IMG/VR virus record: IMGVR_UViG_3300017714_000194
Location: 1-22,455 of that record
Reading direction: 5' to 3' (one strand)
DNA length: 22,455 bases
Source: a virus
In this document: in pieces, positions 167-17,923 of the stretch
Layout: every line of letters begins with the position of its first letter
Numbering within the stretch: the first letter of the stretch is position 1
The notes under the pieces: model-generated
Databases searched by the model: none
Seen by the model: the letters and a program-made list of their open reading frames with translations, nothing else
Told to the model about the DNA's origin: nothing
Made by a program: the position numbers and the translations under genes

Positions 167-1243
167 TCACGCAATAAAATGTATAACATCTTTTTTACCA
201 TTCAAGATAGCATTGGCTTCTTCTAAAAGAATATCATGTTTTGTCTTCAAATCAATATTAGAACCTGTATCAGCGATAAGTATAGAATTATCATCATGTC
301 TAATTATTTCAGCCGCTACTAATTTAGTTGCCGCATCGTGTACAGTAGCAGGAACTCTTGTTTCACCAGTGACATATGTAACTCTAACAGAATGAGAACG
401 TAAGTAAGGATAATTTTTCAAAAAGAATATTTTACCATCAATGTCAATCGTCCAGTAGTCTCCCATCCTACGTTGGTCTTGATTATCAGTAAACCCTGTA
501 ACTGAACCAAGGGTTGAAGAAATAGTACATGCAGACCCATCTTCTCCTAATAGTAGTGATGAAATAATAACGGTGTCTCCTCCTTCACTATCTGTTGTGG
601 CATAAAAGAAATCTGAAATATGAACTGCATTATTACCATTTGCAGTAATAGATTTAGCAGCAGTTTCTCCTGTAAACTTCGCTGTCTTATGGGGGAAAAC
701 TTCGTTAATAGCATCGGCTACTTGACTAGCAGTAGTTTTAGGACCAAAATTGTCAAAGAAATCTATTCCTTTATCAAGAACAAATGTATAAGTTCCTACA
801 CCTAAGGTAATAGTCCAATTACCACTTTGAGGAGTAGGTGGCATTTTCACCTTAGCAGTTGCAGATGCTAAATCAACATACTTATCACCTTGCCATACTT
901 CTAACCTAACAATTTTTTGAACTCTAGGTCTTTCTAATTGTACAAAGCCAACATAGTCTTTGAATCTGTGAACAGGATAAGCACCATGATTAAACGCTTC
1001 AAATCCATAAAATTCATTAGAATGTATTACTGGACGATAACTATGTCCTACAATATCGTCTACTCTTTCTTCTGATTTCTTAATTAATAGTCCTACTTCT
1101 GCAATACTAGGTGTAGTTCCAGTCGTAAATGGTGCTATTTGTAGCATCTTAGATATGTCACCATGAGTAGTATAATACCCACTACCATTAGTATAATTGA
1201 CATTTATATTTGTGAAATCACTAGGTGAGGATAATTTACTCAT
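167..1243 (-). CDS. Head-tail connector/adaptor-like protein with an inserted beta-rich domain
   Basis: 358 residues. The N-terminal part (about 43-115: TPSIAEVGLLIKKSEERVDD, then a Tyr/Arg-rich strand region) and the C-terminal part (about 285-345: VRVTYVTGETRVPATVHDAA, followed by a helix) resemble phage gp6/gp15-type head-tail connectors. Those have a helical bundle that packs under the portal. Between them (about 125-260) sits a Gly/Thr/Ser-rich insert containing TTASQVADAINEVF. That short 'VADAIN' signature recurs in phage tail and adhesin-like beta domains. The start overlaps the previous gene's stop (ATGA at 1240-1243) and follows GGAGAATGG. Family assignment rests on motif memory and gene order; no catalytic residues apply. 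Confidence 0.55.
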   Translation of the reverse strand: MSKLSSPSDFTNINVNYTNGSGYYTTHGDISKMLQIAPFTTGTTPSIAEVGLLIKKSEERVDDIVGHSYRPVIHSNEFYGFEAFNHGAYPVHRFKDYVGFVQLERPRVQKIVRLEVWQGDKYVDLASATAKVKMPPTPQSGNWTITLGVGTYTFVLDKGIDFFDNFGPKTTASQVADAINEVFPHKTAKFTGETAAKSITANGNNAVHISDFFYATTDSEGGDTVIISSLLLGEDGSACTISSTLGSVTGFTDNQDQRRMGDYWTIDIDGKIFFLKNYPYLRSHSVRVTYVTGETRVPATVHDAATKLVAAEIIRHDDNSILIADTGSNIDLKTKHDILLEEANAILNGKKDVIHFIA

Positions 1244-4008: not shown

Positions 4009-4680
4009 CTAATAGTCTTTTATCATTGTTAATATTCCACGATAAACCATTTCCGAGTCTGACTTAGCACTTACTATGTATTTATGACAAGGAATTCCTG
4101 TATCATTTAACTTCTGAAGACCGGGTTTGAATGACTCAAATATAGGATGATTTTCTATCTTACCTTTATGATTATATTTGTCTTTCCATAAATCATATTT
4201 GTTAGCCCAAAGACCAACAGCCAAAGGAAAGTCTTCATCTTTTTTCTTCTTTTTCCTACCCCCAATAGTCCAATGTGTTTCACATAAAGTATCAACTAAG
4301 AAAGTCCAAGATAGTTGTTGTTCAATGTCATAATGTTTATCTAAATGTCTATCATCAAATAAAAAAATAACATACTTTACATTTCTACTTCGTAAATCTC
4401 TAACCCACTCTTCCCAATATACAGTCTGCCCCCCAATATCAGCAGTTTTTATTGTGTGTGCATCTCCATCAAGTTTAACAAATTTTCTAGTTGGTTTATG
4501 TCTGCCAACTGTTCTTTTTTTAATTTCAGGAACTTCTCCTCTTGTCATTAGTTGTTTGTGAAGAGTAGTCTTACCTGCCTGACTAGCCCCATAAACTCCA
4601 AAATTGATAGCATGAAGCCTATTATACAATTTATTCATGGCTTCAACCATTAATATTGCAAACCCCGCCATAACTGACAT
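4009..4680 (-). CDS. Arf/Ras-superfamily small GTPase
   Basis: 223 residues with a complete GTP-binding set. G1 is GASQAGKT (31-38). Switch I is a Thr-containing stretch (57-64). G3 is ADIGGQ (80-85), with the Gln that is catalytic in Arf/Ras. G4 is NKYD (160-163) and G5 is VSAKS (203-207). The DxGGQ form of G3 is the Arf, G-alpha and SR-beta type rather than the DTAGQ of Ras. Residues 1-24 before G1 are a Met/Ala/Leu-rich helix that could be amphipathic, as in Arf. A Lys-rich insert (GRKKKKKDED, 141-150) separates G3 from G4. It is transcribed right after two small membrane proteins, which suggests action at a membrane. The start follows GAGGTAG at normal spacing. Confidence 0.85.
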   Translation of the reverse strand: MSVMAGFAILMVEAMNKLYNRLHAINFGVYGASQAGKTTLHKQLMTRGEVPEIKKRTVGRHKPTRKFVKLDGDAHTIKTADIGGQTVYWEEWVRDLRSRNVKYVIFLFDDRHLDKHYDIEQQLSWTFLVDTLCETHWTIGGRKKKKKDEDFPLAVGLWANKYDLWKDKYNHKGKIENHPIFESFKPGLQKLNDTGIPCHKYIVSAKSDSEMVYRGILTMIKDY

Positions 4681-5400: not shown

Positions 5401-5694
5401 TCAAGACCAATTGACTGAAACTGTCCCGCTTCCAGTTGTAATCTGTATAAATATTCCATTTGCTACTATTACGCCATGTAAATCTTGTTCAATGGTTTTG
5501 GCTGTACCTCCAGCGTGTAGTTGTATTCGAGCAACTTCTTTTTTGCCTGATGTAGTTGAATTGTCACTGTCCCATATTTTGACAGTCATTAAAGAGTTAG
5601 CCGTTGATGTGGCATGAACACTCATTATTTTACATCTATGTTTTACTGCAACAGTAGAACTAGATACTATCCCAGTTGAATTACAAACTGGCAT
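5401..5694 (-). CDS. Small beta-rich structural protein, possible capsid decoration
   Basis: 97 residues, almost entirely short alternating hydrophobic strands rich in Thr, Ser, Val and Gly (for example TSTANSLMTVKIWDSDN and GVIVANGIFIQITTGSGTVS). This suggests a beta-sandwich. It lies two genes after the major capsid gene, a common place for decoration or minor head proteins. It starts on a TAATG overlap with the previous gene's stop after GGTGG. No charged active site, Cys cluster or membrane segment is seen. Decoration protein is an inference; a tail or fibre fragment is an alternative. Confidence 0.5.
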   Translation of the reverse strand: MPVCNSTGIVSSSTVAVKHRCKIMSVHATSTANSLMTVKIWDSDNSTTSGKKEVARIQLHAGGTAKTIEQDLHGVIVANGIFIQITTGSGTVSVNWS

Positions 5695-6212: not shown

Positions 6213-7583
6213 TTAAGCACTCTTTAGGTTGGTGATTTTACCTTGTCCCTTAAAGAAAGAACAGCCAGTTTCAGCCATAGTTCGGTACATACCTTGGTTT
6301 CCAAGTTTACCTACACCGAATGGGTTTCCACTAGTAATACCATCTTCAAAGTATTCTGTTGGCTTCATAACTGATAGCCACAGATGGTCTGTGTCAAGTA
6401 TTAGTATATCACTTAGGTTTACATTTGTACCACCAGTTGATGGCATGTCTTTACATGGTATGATTGGTATATCATAATATGTAGCAACTCTGAAACCTGC
6501 TTCCTGACCCTTTACTCCACGAACACCATTATGGGAAGGAACGATTTCTTTCCTGTCCATAAATCTCTCTTGGCTTTGTAGTAAGTCAGCAATTGCTTGT
6601 ACAGTATCATATCCTGTTAGAATAACTTTCGGGTTTCCACCATTCTGACGGATTCTACGAATCATGCTGTTCAATAGACTTAGAGATAGAACTCTAGCGT
6701 CATTAGTAGCATAACCTGCTCCGAAATCAACTTCAGAATCTAAGAAAGATGCTGTTCCAGTAGCGGCTTCATTGTTTCCGTGTGTACCACTGATTGTTAC
6801 AGTTCTACTTGTTCCGAATAGTTTTACAACATCAGCAACAACTGCTGGTGTTCCTGAATCATTCTTTCCAGTAGCAAGTAAATCTGCTTCATACATTGCA
6901 GCGATTTCAGCAGCAGATGAAACAATCTTCATTAGAGAAGTATAATTTCTCTCAATTGTTGTTGCTGTACCGTCATCGTATCTTTCAAGAGGCATTAATA
7001 GCATCTTGTTTTGTGTTTCTGCGTGATGCTTACCCATGTCTTCACGGATAATAGAACGTATATCGCCAACACCGTCATCGATTGCAGCAAGTTCCATACC
7101 AAGTTCTGAGAACTCGAATAGATGTGCAACTGTTTTAGGGCTAACATATAGTTTAGCATACTGTGGTGCAATTGGAGGAATATCATTTCCTGTTCCAAGT
7201 GTTGCGTTTTCTGCAACTCCACCAAGTCTGTCTGCTCTAGGTGCGGCTGCGCCTTGCGCTCCTGTTCCTATTGCAATACTGCTTCCTGAACCACCCTCTG
7301 CTCTGTCTTTCAAAACTCTCCATCCACTAGATGTGTATGGTCTTTTTGCAAGCATAGCAAGTGCGTTAACTTCTTGATTTAACATTGACCATACTTTTTG
7401 TCCGTAAAGAACATTGTATAGGTCACCTAATCCACTAGCAGCAGTGAATCCCTGCGTACTGTCGTGTGGTGTTCCGAAACCTCCAACAACACCAGCACTC
7501 TTCAATAGGGCATTACCCGATGCGCCAGCGTAACCGTAAGTTGCTGCTTCTAAATCTTTCATTGTGTTAATATATCCACTCAT
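6213..7583 (-). CDS. Major capsid protein, HK97 fold (probable)
   Basis: 456 residues, Gly/Ala/Ser-rich. An N-terminal arm (1-60) is followed by an E-loop-like Gly/Ser/Ala stretch (about 95-115), a long helix region (about 165-195, EFSELGMELAAIDDGVGDIR), and an A-domain-like region. That region contains NPKVILTGYDTVQAIADLL, then VATYYDIPIIPCKDM and DILILDTDHLWLSVMKP. The sequence 'ydiPIipckdmp ... iLilDtdhlwl' is typical of HK97-like capsid C-terminal halves. It follows the protease/scaffold gene by one base between stop and start, the canonical order. The start has an excellent AAGGAGAG ribosome-binding site. No obvious protease cleavage site was identified in the N-arm. Confidence 0.85.
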   Translation of the reverse strand: MSGYINTMKDLEAATYGYAGASGNALLKSAGVVGGFGTPHDSTQGFTAASGLGDLYNVLYGQKVWSMLNQEVNALAMLAKRPYTSSGWRVLKDRAEGGSGSSIAIGTGAQGAAAPRADRLGGVAENATLGTGNDIPPIAPQYAKLYVSPKTVAHLFEFSELGMELAAIDDGVGDIRSIIREDMGKHHAETQNKMLLMPLERYDDGTATTIERNYTSLMKIVSSAAEIAAMYEADLLATGKNDSGTPAVVADVVKLFGTSRTVTISGTHGNNEAATGTASFLDSEVDFGAGYATNDARVLSLSLLNSMIRRIRQNGGNPKVILTGYDTVQAIADLLQSQERFMDRKEIVPSHNGVRGVKGQEAGFRVATYYDIPIIPCKDMPSTGGTNVNLSDILILDTDHLWLSVMKPTEYFEDGITSGNPFGVGKLGNQGMYRTMAETGCSFFKGQGKITNLKSA

Positions 7584-8831: not shown

Positions 8832-11390
8832 TTACTTAGGTAATTCTAAATCGCTGTACTTATCTTCAGAAAGTTGCCAAAGATTGTCTTTAGAGTCCTT
8901 ATCTAGCATTTTTTGTTTTGTCCCTGTCCACGCTACCCAAGTTTGTTTTTCATCTAAAGGAACAACTCGGAAATGTATTCTAGTTTGAAATTTCTTTCCA
9001 TCTAATCTATATTCGTGATATCCGTCTTTCTGTACTCCAAATTCTAATTCTCCGGAATCTAATACTTTTGTACTGTTTCTAACATTAGCATTTATTATTG
9101 CTGGAAACTTTTTAGATTTGCCAAATAAATCATAAATATCAGTAGGTTCATCTATATCAATTAACCAAGACTGCCTAACATTACCACGCTCAATTATGAA
9201 ATCTATATTACCGTCTTCTCTTTGTCGTATTTCAAAAGAACCCATATTAGGCTCTTCAGACACTTTTTCAATATATTCAGGTTTAACAGAAAATTCATTT
9301 ACTCCATCAAATGCATCTTGACTTCTTAAATATTCTAATAGTTTTCTAGATTTTCCATCATATACTTGATTATATTCTTGCTGTAAATGTAATTTTACTT
9401 TATCTTCAATGTCACTAAATTTCATAGAATTATTATTATCTCTAATTATTTCTATAATTCCTGCACGCAATTTAGTTTTATCAGATTTCATAAATTTTTC
9501 TAACTGCCCCATTAATTCATCCATGGAAGCGACTGCATTTTTTTGCATCAATTCATCTCCTTTAAATCCATATAAAGTAAATCCTTCAACGTCATGTTTA
9601 CAAATAATTTCTGCTTCTCCATGAACATAATCAGTAACAATATATTTTTTAAGTTTCTTTCTATCTTTACGTTGCATTTCAGCAATTATAGATAGTGGAT
9701 TAATAATATCTTTAGGATTAAACGTTGGGAAAGTTCCACTGGTTATAGATTTCTTTGTTTTAGTAGATAATTGTTCTAATGTTTCTAATTTATCCGGAGC
9801 ATCTACTTCAGGTAATTCTATTAATTTGGCTGAATACAAACTAAATCCATCTTTCTTCTTAGTTACTTCATCGACTTTAACTCTAATAATTGTACCAACA
9901 TCAACATGTATTTTAGTGTTAAGAGCCTTACCAACTGGTAAGTAATCTTTACCGTCTAATTCTATTGTTTTATTATTTCTAGTATCTTCTGCTGTTAATG
10001 GTCCGACTCCCATAGTGTAAGAATGTAGGCCACTTTTGGTTTTTTTATCATCTAAAACCATAACATCTAAATCAACATAATTTTTCCATTTAATCCATTT
10101 AGGATTTTTCTTCTTACCAATGTAATATGTTGATTCGATATCTTTTATGACTACTCCTTCTGCCGTAGGCATTTCCATAATTTTTTTAGCATATTCTCCT
10201 ACTTCCTCCATAGAGTCAGCAATTCTAGTATCTTTCTTAGAAGGGAATGCTAGAGCATCTGATGAATGTTGAGCATATTGGTAAAGCATAATATTTATTC
10301 TTTCTTTCAGAGTTTCGTCTGTTAAGTCTTTACCTTCGTGTTTCATCACATCAAAAGCGTGCGCTCTAAGAGTTGCACCTTCTAATTTCTTCTTGAATAT
10401 ATGAGTAATAACATCTGCTCTGTGTAGGGATTCTTCACCCTTAAACAATAGTAGTTCAGCATCAAGGATACAATCTCCGAACGCTTTCTTTTCCATTTTT
10501 TCAACTTGTTCAGGACATTTATCAGTTATGTCTTTTTTATTGTAAGAATAAATAGTTACTTTATTTTCAAATTTATGAATTTGTATTCGCATACCGTCAT
10601 ACTTTTCTTGTACAACATATTCTCCACTAAGTCCTTTTATTGCTTTCATATCATCTAAATCAAAAATTCTATACATTGGTTTATTGGGTATTAAAAAATC
10701 GATATCTTGTTTTTCATCTTCAGATTTAGCAATATCTAAATCTTCTAAGTTTTCCCACTTTTCCTCTGAATATTGACTTTGATATACTTGCTCTAATAGT
10801 TTCATTGCATTTCCAAACTTACCCTTAACTCGCTTACTATCTTTATCGTCTCCATAATGTTCTATAATATACAATGGAATATCTTTGGGTGATATATCTA
10901 ATCCATTAGCACCATCAGTGATTTCATCAGGTTTTAATTCTGACTCCTCCCATGCTTTTTTTGGTAAAGCAGAACTGTGACTTCTCATAGCATAATGAAT
11001 AAAGGAAGCAAACACTGCTTCATCATTCAATAATACACTAAGTACTTTATCTCCTAATTGTTTAGAAAACGGGTCACTAATTTCATTTGATTCAAAACGC
11101 ATAGTTTTTATTGCTTCGTATATTTTTTTTGCCGTAGTAGATTTAGCATCTATGGCTTGGTCATCAAATAAAATCTTTTCATCTAAATATTTTTTGAGTT
11201 CTCTAGAAAATTCACTCAGTCCATCAAAATTATCTCTAATAGATTTGACCATTGTTTTCCATTTACTGCCATACTCTTTTGGATTTTCTTTAGCAGATAA
11301 ATAGGAATAACGTACCCTTTCAAAAAAATCTAAAACTCTTTTAGTAAGGGCTTTAGTATCCTTCTCAAATGCTATTCCCGAAGTAGACAT
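8832..11390 (-). CDS. ATP-dependent DNA ligase with a large C-terminal extension
   Basis: 852 residues, longer than typical archaeal ligases (about 550-610). An N-terminal helical DNA-binding-type domain (1-235) precedes the nucleotidyltransferase core: motif I KYDGMR (263-268, Lys263 forms the lysyl-AMP), motif III ILDAEL (308-313), IIIa AHAFDVM (343-349), IV EGVVIK (411-416) and V KWIKWK (431-436). An OB-fold region follows (about 440-525). Residues about 550-852 are extra. They include a helical winged-helix-like segment (about 640-700) and a beta-rich end (about 715-830). The end vaguely resembles the 3'-phosphoesterase domain of bacterial LigD but lacks its His residues. The gene lies in the morphogenesis block, next to the protease, which is unusual for a replication/repair enzyme. 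Confidence 0.88.
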   Translation of the reverse strand: MSTSGIAFEKDTKALTKRVLDFFERVRYSYLSAKENPKEYGSKWKTMVKSIRDNFDGLSEFSRELKKYLDEKILFDDQAIDAKSTTAKKIYEAIKTMRFESNEISDPFSKQLGDKVLSVLLNDEAVFASFIHYAMRSHSSALPKKAWEESELKPDEITDGANGLDISPKDIPLYIIEHYGDDKDSKRVKGKFGNAMKLLEQVYQSQYSEEKWENLEDLDIAKSEDEKQDIDFLIPNKPMYRIFDLDDMKAIKGLSGEYVVQEKYDGMRIQIHKFENKVTIYSYNKKDITDKCPEQVEKMEKKAFGDCILDAELLLFKGEESLHRADVITHIFKKKLEGATLRAHAFDVMKHEGKDLTDETLKERINIMLYQYAQHSSDALAFPSKKDTRIADSMEEVGEYAKKIMEMPTAEGVVIKDIESTYYIGKKKNPKWIKWKNYVDLDVMVLDDKKTKSGLHSYTMGVGPLTAEDTRNNKTIELDGKDYLPVGKALNTKIHVDVGTIIRVKVDEVTKKKDGFSLYSAKLIELPEVDAPDKLETLEQLSTKTKKSITSGTFPTFNPKDIINPLSIIAEMQRKDRKKLKKYIVTDYVHGEAEIICKHDVEGFTLYGFKGDELMQKNAVASMDELMGQLEKFMKSDKTKLRAGIIEIIRDNNNSMKFSDIEDKVKLHLQQEYNQVYDGKSRKLLEYLRSQDAFDGVNEFSVKPEYIEKVSEEPNMGSFEIRQREDGNIDFIIERGNVRQSWLIDIDEPTDIYDLFGKSKKFPAIINANVRNSTKVLDSGELEFGVQKDGYHEYRLDGKKFQTRIHFRVVPLDEKQTWVAWTGTKQKMLDKDSKDNLWQLSEDKYSDLELPK

Positions 11391-14715: not shown

Positions 14716-14908
14716 GATACCCACCACCTGCTTTCTTGTATCTTGCAGCAAGTAACTGTGCTTTTCTTGCAGACCATTGACCTTTTCTACCGCCTTTGCT
14801 TCCTGCTTTTATTCGTTGGAATATCCTCTTTCTCATACCGGGCTTAGTATAATTACCCGCTTGGTTAACTGTTGATTTCTTTCTCTTAATAACGTCAAAC
14901 CAACTCAT
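14708..14908 (-). CDS. MSW-tagged basic protein with GQWSARKAQLL domain
   Basis: 66 residues: MSWFDVIKRKK then a compact basic domain, YTKPGMRKRIFQRIKAGSKG (20-39) and GQWSARKAQLLAARYKKAGG (43-62), ending GGYRD. This 'YT.P.LR..I..GSKGG..GQWSARKAQLL...Y...GGGY' module is, from memory, a small domain of unknown function (I recall it as DUF5872-like) found alone in giant viruses and phages. Here it is joined to the MSW tag. Basic and probably nucleic-acid binding. The start shares TAATG with the portal stop after AGGAG. Confidence 0.65.
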   Translation of the reverse strand: MSWFDVIKRKKSTVNQAGNYTKPGMRKRIFQRIKAGSKGGRKGQWSARKAQLLAARYKKAGGGYRD

Positions 14909-16551
14909 TAACCTACTCTCCTTTCAGTACGCTTGTCAACATTTTGATTTCCAGCATCTGCTGGTAATCCAGTAAATCTCTTATCAGGTCCAGTAGACAT
15001 TGATGGTTTGTTTCTAGTTGCAGGTGGATTTTCTTGTGGTTTACTACCACCCATCATCATCTGTTCTTGCATTTGTCCCATTTGACTTGCATCTATATCT
15101 GTTCCAGCATAAGGGTCAAGTTCTACTTTATCTCCACCTTGGCTTGCACCACCTTCACCACCTTCCATTTTTGGCTCAGGTTTAGTATATGAAAATCTCC
15201 CTTCGTCATCCATATTTACTTCAAATCCTAAATTTTTAATTGCTGCTGCTACATTAACTTCTATCTCTCTTTTACGAAGAACAGCAATCTCATCTTCTTC
15301 TTCTGAAGGAGGCAACTTTAACTCCCAATCTGTAATCCCAAATTCCTTAGTCATAAATGGAAACACATAATTATTCCAAATTGTTTGCGCCATTTCTACT
15401 GCTCGATTAGTAACAAGTATTTGCATACCTTCGTTATTTAGTCCACCACTAGCAGAACTGTCTGCCATGAAAACTTTGCTAACTCCAAAAAATCCAGCAA
15501 TCCTATCTCGTAAATCATCTTTAACAGAAATATAGTCCATTTCCTTTAGGCTATCCATGAACTTAATCCACTCAACTCCTCCTTTACCTTCACCTTCTAT
15601 TCCCATAACAGGAATAAAATGTGGGTCTTGCTCCATCTTATCTTTGACTCCTCGCCAAAAAGATTTCATAGATTCCATATTTCTTGTTTGTACTGTCAAC
15701 AGTCCTCTTGGCATTCTTGCCTTAGTGTAGGAAGAATTAACATAATTTTCCATAGCAAGCAATGTAGTTATCTGATTCCACATTGTCATAATTGGGGATT
15801 GTCCATATAATCTAGAAGGTGAATATTTACTAAAATGTAATACTTCTCCATCTAAGAAATACTGTTCAGTTCCATTTACTCTATTCACATAATGTACTGG
15901 ATGAAGTTCAGAACCACACATGCCACAAGTATCAGAAATTTCTGTACTAATAAAATCTCTATGATTCAAACATGTAAATCCTTGATGTCCTCTTTCTCCA
16001 TTTTCATCAGCATAAATATGCATAGAAACAGGGTCGCCACGATATACTTCCTTAATACGATGCATTCGTATGTCTCCATTTCCATCAACAAAGTATTCCT
16101 TAACCATAATCATATATGCATCGTCCATTATATTCAAGTCATCTTCTAACTCTTTTAGCACATCAATAAATAATTGTTCACCTTTGTTTACATAACCATC
16201 TAATAATTTATGTATGTATTTTAATTGGTCACGATTAGGCTTGACTAAGTTAGTACTACCACAATCAATACAGGCAGTAGTAGGAGTTTTGTGTTCTCTT
16301 CCACAATCTGTACACTTGACTACAAACTTTTCTTCCCATGTATACCCACGCCTAAATATTTCATTTTTCAATTGAGTAATACAAGTACGTACAATTACAG
16401 ATTGGTAAGTAACGTGATATATTATTGGAGCAGTTATAATATTTGACGGGGCTTTTTCTTGAATACCCGGATTGTAAATGTTTCTGTCTTGGGGCTTAGG
16501 GGTCGTTCTTCGAGTTAATCTCTGAAACAACGTTGGCTTCTTTTCTACCAT
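14908..16551 (-). CDS. Portal protein with two zinc-binding inserts
   Basis: 547 residues from the ATG at 16549-16551. An in-frame start at 16584 would overlap the upstream gene, whose last codons GGAGGAGGAA form this gene's ribosome-binding site. The portal signature 'SPSRLYGQSPIMTMWNQ' (about 244-260), then ALTS-like region and LTVQTRNM, then 'DRIAGFFGVSKVFM', identifies a DNA-packaging portal. Two zinc sites lie in the N-terminal half: C80-C83-C94-C97 (CTDC...CIDC) and C194-H197-C209-C212 (CLNH...CGMC). The C-terminal ~110 residues are Gly/Gln/Pro/Met-rich and disordered. It would form the dodecameric ring at the packaging vertex. Confidence 0.85.
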   Translation of the reverse strand: MVEKKPTLFQRLTRRTTPKPQDRNIYNPGIQEKAPSNIITAPIIYHVTYQSVIVRTCITQLKNEIFRRGYTWEEKFVVKCTDCGREHKTPTTACIDCGSTNLVKPNRDQLKYIHKLLDGYVNKGEQLFIDVLKELEDDLNIMDDAYMIMVKEYFVDGNGDIRMHRIKEVYRGDPVSMHIYADENGERGHQGFTCLNHRDFISTEISDTCGMCGSELHPVHYVNRVNGTEQYFLDGEVLHFSKYSPSRLYGQSPIMTMWNQITTLLAMENYVNSSYTKARMPRGLLTVQTRNMESMKSFWRGVKDKMEQDPHFIPVMGIEGEGKGGVEWIKFMDSLKEMDYISVKDDLRDRIAGFFGVSKVFMADSSASGGLNNEGMQILVTNRAVEMAQTIWNNYVFPFMTKEFGITDWELKLPPSEEEDEIAVLRKREIEVNVAAAIKNLGFEVNMDDEGRFSYTKPEPKMEGGEGGASQGGDKVELDPYAGTDIDASQMGQMQEQMMMGGSKPQENPPATRNKPSMSTGPDKRFTGLPADAGNQNVDKRTERRVG

Positions 16552-16552
16552 A

Positions 16553-17923
16553 CTACTCTTCCTCCTCCATCTTGTGGATAACATCGACCACTTCGTTATC
16601 CTTCAAAACTTCTTCTAATTTATCCATAGTAGAATTTTTATCATTATCATAATATTTTACAACACTATCTATGTCAATCTCATACTTTGCGAAATCATAG
16701 TTCTTATCATCCTTATGATTCTCATATTTCATTAATTTAAAGAGTTCTACCTTACGTGCCTTGTACCAATTTGCTTTCTTATGACTTTTTTTCATCCTAA
16801 GTAACTCTAACAATATTTCAGCATTTTTCTTTTTTAATCTAAAATATGGTAAGCATTTGTTAAGTATCTCTCCAACATCATTTCTAGAATAAAAATTTAA
16901 TCTATTAATTGGTTTAGTATCTTGTGGAGATTTTTGGTCTAAATGTAATCTCCCACATCCTAGAGACTTGTGCATTTCTAACATGAATGCTTTCCCTCTG
17001 TCTCCAGTTGCAACTAACCCGACTCTAGGATTATGATTTTTATCCATAGTAATGTAGCCATCTGAATCTATGAAAGCCGCAGTATATGCATAAATATCCT
17101 TTTTTATTTCATCACTCATCTTATACAAAGCACCATTAACAATAGTAATATTTTGTGTCTTAGCCAATTTGGAAATCATTCGTGGAGAAGATTTACGTAA
17201 CAAATTATCCGGTAATCTTTCGTGTACTTGTCTAGCAGATATTCCCTGTTCTTCACTAACTAACTTAACAATATGTCTTTTCAATAATTCTTTTGGGCCT
17301 AAGTTCACAATAGATTGTTTAACTATTTTATTGAACTCGCGTTTACTGTTTGTCATCTGTTTTGTCATTTTAGAATAATCTGAAGAATATGCCATACCAT
17401 CTCTTTCTATACGCGCTTCCCAATATTTACATAAAGTATCGACAACTTCTCTTCTAGTTTTCTCATCTTGAATAAATGATAATTTAATTAATTTTTCTTC
17501 AGAACAAGTCATATCTTTCAAGGCCGACTTATATTTTTTAACCCAATATATTTTTTCTATATTAGAATCTAAATGAGTTGAATATGAAAAAATTAAATTA
17601 TCAATAGATTTTGTAACTGCTATTTTTTTCTCTCCCTTTAGAGTTCTTCTAAATTTTTTGAGTTCTTTAATCATAGCAGGTATGTCTTTACCTTCTATTT
17701 CATATTTTTTAAGTTCTAGATGTATTTCCTTTCTAGCACTAGATAACGTCAACCTATGGTCTTCTGCGAATCTTTTTTCTAATTCAAAATGGTCTGAAAT
17801 AGGTTGGTCATTTAACCAACTAAGTTTCATTTCATCAGTGAGTACTTTTTGTCTATTCTGAAGTTCTTCCTCTTGGTCAGCAAGGTCTGCTGCTTCTCTT
17901 AATTTGTTACCCTTTTCACCCAT
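16553..17923 (-). CDS. Winged-helix plus LAGLIDADG-type endonuclease-like protein
   Basis: 456 residues. Residues 1-200 are helical and charged, with an HTH-like part near 45-75 (FELEKRFAEDHRLTLSSARK). Residues about 205-268 look like a winged helix (LLKRHIVKLVSEEQGISARQ...NGALYKM). Residues about 275-400 form one LAGLIDADG module: YTAAFIDSDGYIT (280-292, acidic D286/D288), then VATGDRGKAFMLEMHKSLGC and PYFRLKKKNAEILLELLRMK. Only one motif copy is present, so a homodimer would be expected. No intein splice signals are seen. It lies between terminase and portal; the N-terminal half may be a small-terminase-type DNA binder, which is speculative. Its start follows TAGGTGATAAC, overlapping the terminase stop. 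Confidence 0.75.
   Translation of the reverse strand: MGEKGNKLREAADLADQEEELQNRQKVLTDEMKLSWLNDQPISDHFELEKRFAEDHRLTLSSARKEIHLELKKYEIEGKDIPAMIKELKKFRRTLKGEKKIAVTKSIDNLIFSYSTHLDSNIEKIYWVKKYKSALKDMTCSEEKLIKLSFIQDEKTRREVVDTLCKYWEARIERDGMAYSSDYSKMTKQMTNSKREFNKIVKQSIVNLGPKELLKRHIVKLVSEEQGISARQVHERLPDNLLRKSSPRMISKLAKTQNITIVNGALYKMSDEIKKDIYAYTAAFIDSDGYITMDKNHNPRVGLVATGDRGKAFMLEMHKSLGCGRLHLDQKSPQDTKPINRLNFYSRNDVGEILNKCLPYFRLKKKNAEILLELLRMKKSHKKANWYKARKVELFKLMKYENHKDDKNYDFAKYEIDIDSVVKYYDNDKNSTMDKLEEVLKDNEVVDVIHKMEEEE

Follow-up and report, generated by a model that had tools for sequence, protein, structure and literature searches.

The window, that is, the whole 22,455-base virus record that was analysed, carries its main genes on the minus strand and encodes a terminase, a portal, an S78 protease, an SU10-type major capsid protein (MCP) and an ATP-dependent ligase. 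A 223-aa open reading frame (ORF) occupies exactly positions 4009–4680 of the minus strand with its ATG at 4680, and the plus strand over these positions is closed by many stops. The first-pass annotation had read this region as a small GTPase with five intact G motifs, encoded inside a viral structural gene block, and both readings held. GASQAGKT, Thr57, DIGGQ, NKYD and SAK were all found, with a single match to the ordered G1-G3-G4-G5 pattern across the six frames of the window, and the gene has the prohead protease and MCP genes upstream and a head-tail-adaptor-like gene downstream (Table 1). The name "adaptor" is our own reading; the profile libraries gave no name to that protein. The GC (0.335) and GC3 (0.232) of the GTPase gene were similar to those of neighbouring genes.

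Table 1 Features of the GTPase locus, with positions in the window.
Feature	Positions	Strand	Basis
Major capsid protein (context)	6213..7583	-	SU10_MCP 2.5e-07; HCTV-1/HVTV-1 MCP matches
Membrane protein, two hydrophobic segments, ~140 aa	4968..5390	-	73 homologues
Small membrane protein, RAHSAD motif, 74 aa, one hydrophobic segment	4738..4962	-	74 homologues
Small GTPase, 223 aa, Arf-like fold, DxGG[QE]	4009..4680	-	ORF, model, 211 homologues
N-terminal hydrophobic helix of GTPase, aa 3–22, invariant Glu13	4615..4674	-	model, hydropathy
G1/P-loop GASQAGKT, aa 31–38	4567..4590	-	sequence; GKTT invariant in 211
G2, switch-I Thr57 in R-T-x-G	4510..4512	-	R56, T57, G59 invariant in 211
G3 DIGGQ, aa 81–85; last residue Glu in most relatives	4426..4440	-	
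G4 NKYD, aa 160–163	4192..4203	-	N, K, D invariant in 211
G5 SAK, aa 204–206	4063..4071	-	invariant in 211
CxxC...CxxH protein, probable zinc site, 229 aa	3267..3956	-	conserved RCVxCG and TYCxKH
Gln/Pro-rich protein, conserved N-terminus, C-terminal AWAKWL, 236 aa	2557..3267	-	
Head-tail-adaptor-like protein (context)	167..1243	-	HVTV-1 gene 125 counterpart by position and profile

The search with the GTPase found 109 relatives in IMG/VR contigs, the best 80 at 69–95% identity, and searches from alignments headed by other members confirmed 273, 323 and 374 stretches. The best 80 were kept from each GTPase- or neighbour-led search, and most loci were thus GTPase- or neighbour-chosen. The GTPase was present in 405 of the 479 loci gathered and was represented by 211 distinct full-length proteins (omitting loci without a start motif, with X, or <215 aa), down to 58% identity to that of the window; a thinned alignment contained 77 of 190 GTPases at a cut-off of 95.5% identity. 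Across the 211 proteins, G31, G36, K37, T38, T39, T57, D81, G83, G84, N160, K161, D163, S204, A205 and K206 were unchanged, and R56, G59, W89, W92, R111 and H112 were also invariant. The median dN/dS was 0.049 (maximum 0.116) in 150 close pairs drawn at random from 666. Because the binding residues are invariant and dN/dS is this low, the ORF is not a chance one, and at the sequence level the alignments demonstrate a guanine-nucleotide site that is complete and strongly constrained. Residue 85, the last place of the DxGGQ motif recorded by the first-pass annotation, is Gln in the window protein, and Gln is no feature of the family, in which 169 of the 211 proteins had Glu here and 42 had Gln. 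Ras carrying Glu at the equivalent position retains GTP hydrolysis. A non-GTPase P-loop ATPase or kinase was ruled out by the invariant NKxD and SAK; weak matches to a PRK07667 kinase, AAA_24 and ATPase_2, and to the Sak4-like phrog_124 (2/10 members, best E 0.054), were taken as P-loop likeness.

As judged by profile searches, similarity of the GTPase to known families is at the detection limit. The 77 aligned members matched the Pfam profiles MMR_HSR1 (74 members), Roc (59), SRPRB (50), Ras (38) and Arf (27) at E ≤ 0.1. Among the 10 members shown with scores, one passed a Pfam cut-off (L130, MMR_HSR1, 22.4 vs 21.9) and none passed the Arf gathering score of 22.3, against which the window protein reached 20.2 bits; the best Arf match among the 77 had an E value of 3.8e-05. 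The best SRPRB (PF09439) match had an E value of 8e-05, with all scores shown <25 bits. NCBIfam small_GTP matched 74/77 members, the score of the window protein lying under the cut-off, and PDB sequence searches with the GTPase gave no match below E 0.086.

A structural model built from the 77 sequences (mean pLDDT 75.9, pTM 0.76) replaced an earlier one from 15 sequences (pLDDT 58); residues 34–58, the stretch into which switch I falls, were modelled with pLDDT <50. The predicted structure is a small-GTPase fold, with Z scores of 13–15 to Arf, G-alpha, Rab and Ras chains. The best VIA-align matches were Arl2 (Z 15.2), Arl3 (15.1), Arf1 (14.7) and GerdArfR1 (14.5), and Gi-alpha was also among them, G-alpha being tied with Arf/Arl. 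Rab and Ras chains reached Z ≤13.9, Rab lying within 1.3 Z of Arf/Arl, and the modelled preference for Arf over Rab/Ras appears small (15.2 vs ≤13.9). Foldseek alone gave the top ranks to Gz, Sec4 and Rab1b, and the best named matches in a viral structure library were Ras/Rab proteins of giant viruses.

The hallmarks of Arf are PTxG in switch I, WDxGGQ, a CAT-type G5 and an amphipathic N-terminal helix with Gly2. The viral GTPase shares TxG in switch I with its best structural matches, Arf/Arl and Asgard ArfR (T57 and G59 invariant, with Arg in the place of Pro in 211/211), and has in common with Arf/Arl a Trp seven residues beyond DxGG[QE], counted from residue 85. It differs from Arf/Arl in having Ala or Ser instead of Trp before DxGG (211/211), mostly Glu as the last residue of that motif, SAK in place of a CAT-type G5 (211/211), about 20 extra residues ahead of NKxD, and Ser2, invariant in the 77-member alignment, in place of Gly2. 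The amphipathic helix that had been suggested before G1 is a helix in the model, and E13 within it is unchanged in 211/211 distinct homologues. Its amphipathic character was unsupported, since the helical moment exceeded that of shuffles at p<0.05 in 0/77 members and was thus no better than shuffles in 77/77. The helix is instead hydrophobic, with 35/77 members averaging at least 1.6 on the Kyte-Doolittle scale over 19 residues. Strict Arf membership is unsupported, failing on the Trp before DxGG, the Gln, the CAT-type G5 and the amphipathic helix. The Arf-type identity first assigned to the protein thus survives in its predicted fold, nearest to Arf/Arl and G-alpha, and not in its family, for which the profiles favour others and several hallmarks fail; we conclude from the model that the viral GTPase is Arf-like in fold and represents a branch of its own rather than an established Arf.

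The GTPase belongs to a set of five co-directional genes, in the order membrane protein, membrane protein, GTPase, CxxC/CxxH protein and Gln-rich protein, placed between decoration-protein genes and the head-tail adaptor gene. The first-pass annotation had not mentioned the two conserved membrane proteins encoded directly upstream of the GTPase, which strengthen the membrane theme; the segments of both were predicted from hydropathy alone. The RAHSAD protein had one segment over the threshold in 71/74 homologues, and its neighbour had two in 60/73 and one in 13/73. Homologue alignment indicated 5390 as the likely start of the two-segment protein, the ORF of which opens at 5459. Some of the 479 loci share contigs, and linkage was therefore counted over distinct proteins. 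Wherever the flank was long enough, the GTPase was accompanied by the RAHSAD protein (204/204), the two-segment protein (199/199), the CxxC/CxxH protein (192/192) and the Gln-rich protein (178/178), and all five genes and the MCP were present for 157/157 distinct GTPases with flank for every tested neighbour. Conversely, among the matches listed for loci picked by the CxxC/CxxH gene, the GTPase was found in 75/75 and both membrane proteins in 74/74. Each of the four partner genes was absent from the 35 GTPase-less loci (0/35). Since linkage is without exception and the partners are missing where the GTPase is missing, the five genes form one unit, hereafter the cassette. A role in anti-phage defence was set aside, as none of the five proteins matched PADLOC, a collection of anti-phage defence systems.

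Several other features of the window were observed. The motif M[SA]Wx[DE][IV][ILH] is found at seven places on the minus strand (at about 7629, 11675, 12193, 12514, 12837, 14445 and 14908) and nowhere on the plus strand of the window. It stands at the N-termini of five small proteins encoded between ligase and portal and at the C-termini of two further proteins, one of them the prohead protease, and may serve these proteins as a common tag for docking to the prohead. The DNA ligase gene (8832–11390; PF01068, 1.1e-28) lies inside the structural block, between the portal and prohead protease genes, and its product carries long extra regions. The portal protein (14908–16584) has a four-cysteine zinc-ribbon-like insertion with weak matches to zf-ChsH2 (0.0025) and DZR (0.0071). 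The ORF at 16553–17923, between terminase and portal, ends in a C-terminal AAFIDSDGYI that is LAGLIDADG-like by eye, with no Pfam match.

The MCP of the window has HCTV-1 and HVTV-1 among its relatives, and magroviruses have been described as related to Druskaviridae (PMC8651126; PMC10768690). Together, gene content and MCP relatives assign the window to the Druskaviridae-related tailed viruses of marine archaea. Among 80 loci chosen by MCP similarity alone, the GTPase was present in every one of the 58 that extended 3.3 kb or more downstream; the 22 with less comprised 11 with and 11 without a GTPase match. The figure of 58/58 at capsid-chosen loci is the unbiased estimate of prevalence. An MCP tree was reconstructed from 195 distinct MCPs, each 380 aa or longer, out of 238 loci with an MCP match, and all 146 GTPase-bearing MCPs fell in one clade of 150 with a support of 0.977. 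The remaining four contigs of this clade, with <5 kb after the MCP, gave no GTPase match. The GTPase was absent from 18 sister-clade sequences with at least 5 kb downstream (10 were too short) and from 9 such haloviruses (8 too short), and it was missing from 19 of the 20 whole records searched by profile, the sole positive being a clade member. The GTPase thus marks one clade, and the sister clade and haloviruses are without the gene. Distances between GTPases and between MCPs were correlated over 67 loci (Mantel r 0.73, with 0/2000 permutations as high), indicating that the GTPase is inherited with the capsid. These data establish that it is an ancient core gene, passed on vertically within one magrovirus-like lineage of archaeal tailed viruses.

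Family B polymerase was split into two ORFs in 11/11 long records of the GTPase clade (G022–G032, 92–103 kb) and was encoded in one ORF in both sister-clade records (G002 and G007). The legend for Aoguangviridae lists PolB-NTD/CTD (PMC10768690), and on this correspondence in gene content the GTPase clade is probably Aoguangviridae-like. Traits of Magrovirales present were a Druskaviridae-related structural module and a 90–110 kb genome with PolB, the window being a fragment. The sliding clamp profile PF00705 matched 0/13 records at E ≤ 0.001, a search that a diverged clamp could escape. In the four sister-clade loci inspected, decoration-like genes stood in place of the GTPase cassette; in three of them (L202, L207 and L235) one ORF of 788–1027 aa and of unknown function follows and fills the place of the cassette, and the ORF call for the fourth (L245) listed no such long ORF.

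Record G022 also encodes a ThiF/E1-like protein (L405:958–1587, L406:733–1200; PF00899, 1.9e-18), which accounts for weak PF00025 matches at both ends of the record and led us to reject a second Arf-like gene there. A protein encoded nearby has an HTHP...SSTD stretch that is JAMM-like by eye, with no Pfam match, and the two are possibly a ubiquitin-like pair.

Outside the virus contigs, a genome scan found relatives of the GTPase on only two contigs (L095 and L096), both in one Maricaulis metagenome-assembled genome. The MCP of L095 falls inside the virus clade, and these contigs are therefore read as a virus of the GTPase lineage, probably misbinned in a public genome. No match to the GTPase was found in plasmid records or in 50,697 phage records, and PHROGs gave no convincing family match. 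The magrovirus literature searched, with PMC5474096, contained no mention of a GTPase in the parts covered, and an earlier mention in print is possible; among the matches listed, the wider literature on GTPases dealt with cellular ones only.

Three known systems offer comparison. SRPRB has an Arf-related domain behind a membrane-anchoring N-terminus. Its profile is the one matched by 50/77 viral GTPases, at scores under the cut-off wherever shown, and the 35/77 helices that reach membrane-segment hydropathy can be set against its N-terminus. Giant viruses, like the present ones, encode small GTPases, and a mimivirus Rab (PDB 5xc5) matched the model with Z 13.9. Those are of Rab/Ras type and belong to viruses of eukaryotes, whereas the gene described here lies in the structural block of an archaeal tailed virus and in a five-gene cassette. 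The nearest characterised analogue appears to be ArvA, likened here by its published description. According to that description (PMC10927574), the ArvA (OapA) operon of Haloferax and other archaea includes ArvB and ArvC, with a zinc-ribbon gene among its members, loss of ArvA lowered vesicle output about threefold, its overexpression raised it 3.5-fold, and homologues were reported in 14 archaeal phyla. As described there, ArvA resembles the viral protein in being an archaeal small GTPase with profiles between MMR_HSR1 and Arf and an N-terminal helix, and its operon resembles the cassette in encoding a zinc-site protein alongside, a membrane role having been demonstrated for ArvA. It differs in being cellular, with DUF2073 (ArvB) and DUF2072 (ArvC) partners as opposed to the two membrane proteins of the cassette. 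The cassette neighbours gave no match to the ArvB or ArvC Pfam families at E ≤ 10, in a search in which HMMER filters limit weak matches. We therefore rejected ArvB and ArvC as the genes beside the viral GTPase and treat ArvA as an organisational analogy with no claim to membership.

Our preferred reading, to which we give a probability of roughly 40%, is that the GTPase is a late, membrane-anchored switch. As particles assemble or leave the cell, it would work on the host membrane in concert with the two membrane proteins. The GTPase would be made late together with the capsid proteins, as its gene position suggests, and would sit at the inner face of the host membrane, anchored there by the two membrane proteins and by the hydrophobic helix at its own N-terminus. 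On binding of GTP the switch regions would shift, and partners would be recruited or reorganised; among these partners, the CxxC/CxxH protein is the likeliest candidate regulator or effector. The cycle might then shape or open the host membrane, or dock particles there, the protein working like an Arf- or ArvA-type membrane switch while being a demonstrated member of neither family. The invariant binding residues, the dN/dS of 0.049, the 58/58 loci and the 157/157 linkage speak for this reading, as do, on prediction, two membrane neighbours, a hydrophobic N-terminal helix and an Arf/Arl/G-alpha-like fold and, by analogy, the archaeal precedent of ArvA (PMC10927574). Against it stand the helix, which is short, non-amphipathic and carries an invariant Glu; the partner genes, which fall outside the ArvB and ArvC families; and, in the models, the small preference for Arf, the Foldseek top ranks of Gz, Sec4 and Rab1b and the low confidence of switch I. 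A further-reaching version, in which an Arf/ArvA-like switch, two dedicated membrane proteins and regulators of its own make up a GTP-driven machine that remodels membrane by breach, budding or reorganisation, is doubtful. We know of no tailed virus that leaves the cell by such a machine.

The position of the cassette between decoration genes and adaptor, and its inheritance with the capsid (r 0.73 over 67 loci), would also suit an assembly checkpoint in which the GTPase times head maturation or head-tail joining through the flanking decoration or adaptor proteins. We regard this as unlikely: it leaves the two membrane proteins unexplained, and the sister clade has protease, MCP and adaptor genes but no cassette. 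The cassette is hence dispensable for making such particles in general; this weighs against a pure checkpoint and fits lineage-specific handling of the host membrane. Its place among virion genes, with membrane proteins inside the block, raises the alternative that the virion carries all five proteins to the next host, at whose membrane they would act, for example by making a passage for DNA. A GTPase with a full cycle would be unusual as an ejected protein, and an entry module of this kind seems rather improbable.

Host manipulation, in which the GTPase imitates or competes with an ArvA- or MglA-like host GTPase and redirects membrane traffic, motility or polarity, draws on the spread of ArvA homologues over 14 archaeal phyla (PMC10927574) and on the viral copies of host switches carried by giant viruses (PMC4569851). 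It is quite unlikely, as the genome scan gave no near host homologue, both contigs found being read as virus, and a pure decoy would need no fixed set of four viral partners. An artefact, whether a contig chimera or a chance ORF, could be suspected from the lack of a small GTPase of this kind in the phage records searched. Its probability is negligible given the same gene in the same place in 405 loci, among them a 96,094-base contig whose first 999 bases are repeated at its end (G022), and a GC and GC3 like those of the neighbours. The GTPase lies downstream of the MCP in 339/339 related loci with enough sequence, which excludes a chimera, for which absence from related genomes had been named as the sign.

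What is new about the membrane-switch candidate is that the five genes are linked, and universally so within the lineage, rather than any proven Arf identity. With no convincing PHROGs family and no match in phage records, annotation pipelines are likely to miss it. Eukaryotic cell biology depends centrally on membrane-coupled small GTPases, whose archaeal roots are debated. A core GTPase of archaeal tailed viruses with fixed membrane partners offers a compact natural system for studying an Arf-like switch. The cassette also provides concrete candidate genes for how marine archaeal tailed viruses leave or enter cells and may show how viruses of ocean archaea handle the host membrane; if the further-reaching version were true, an abundant group of ocean viruses would possess a GTP-driven exit machine.
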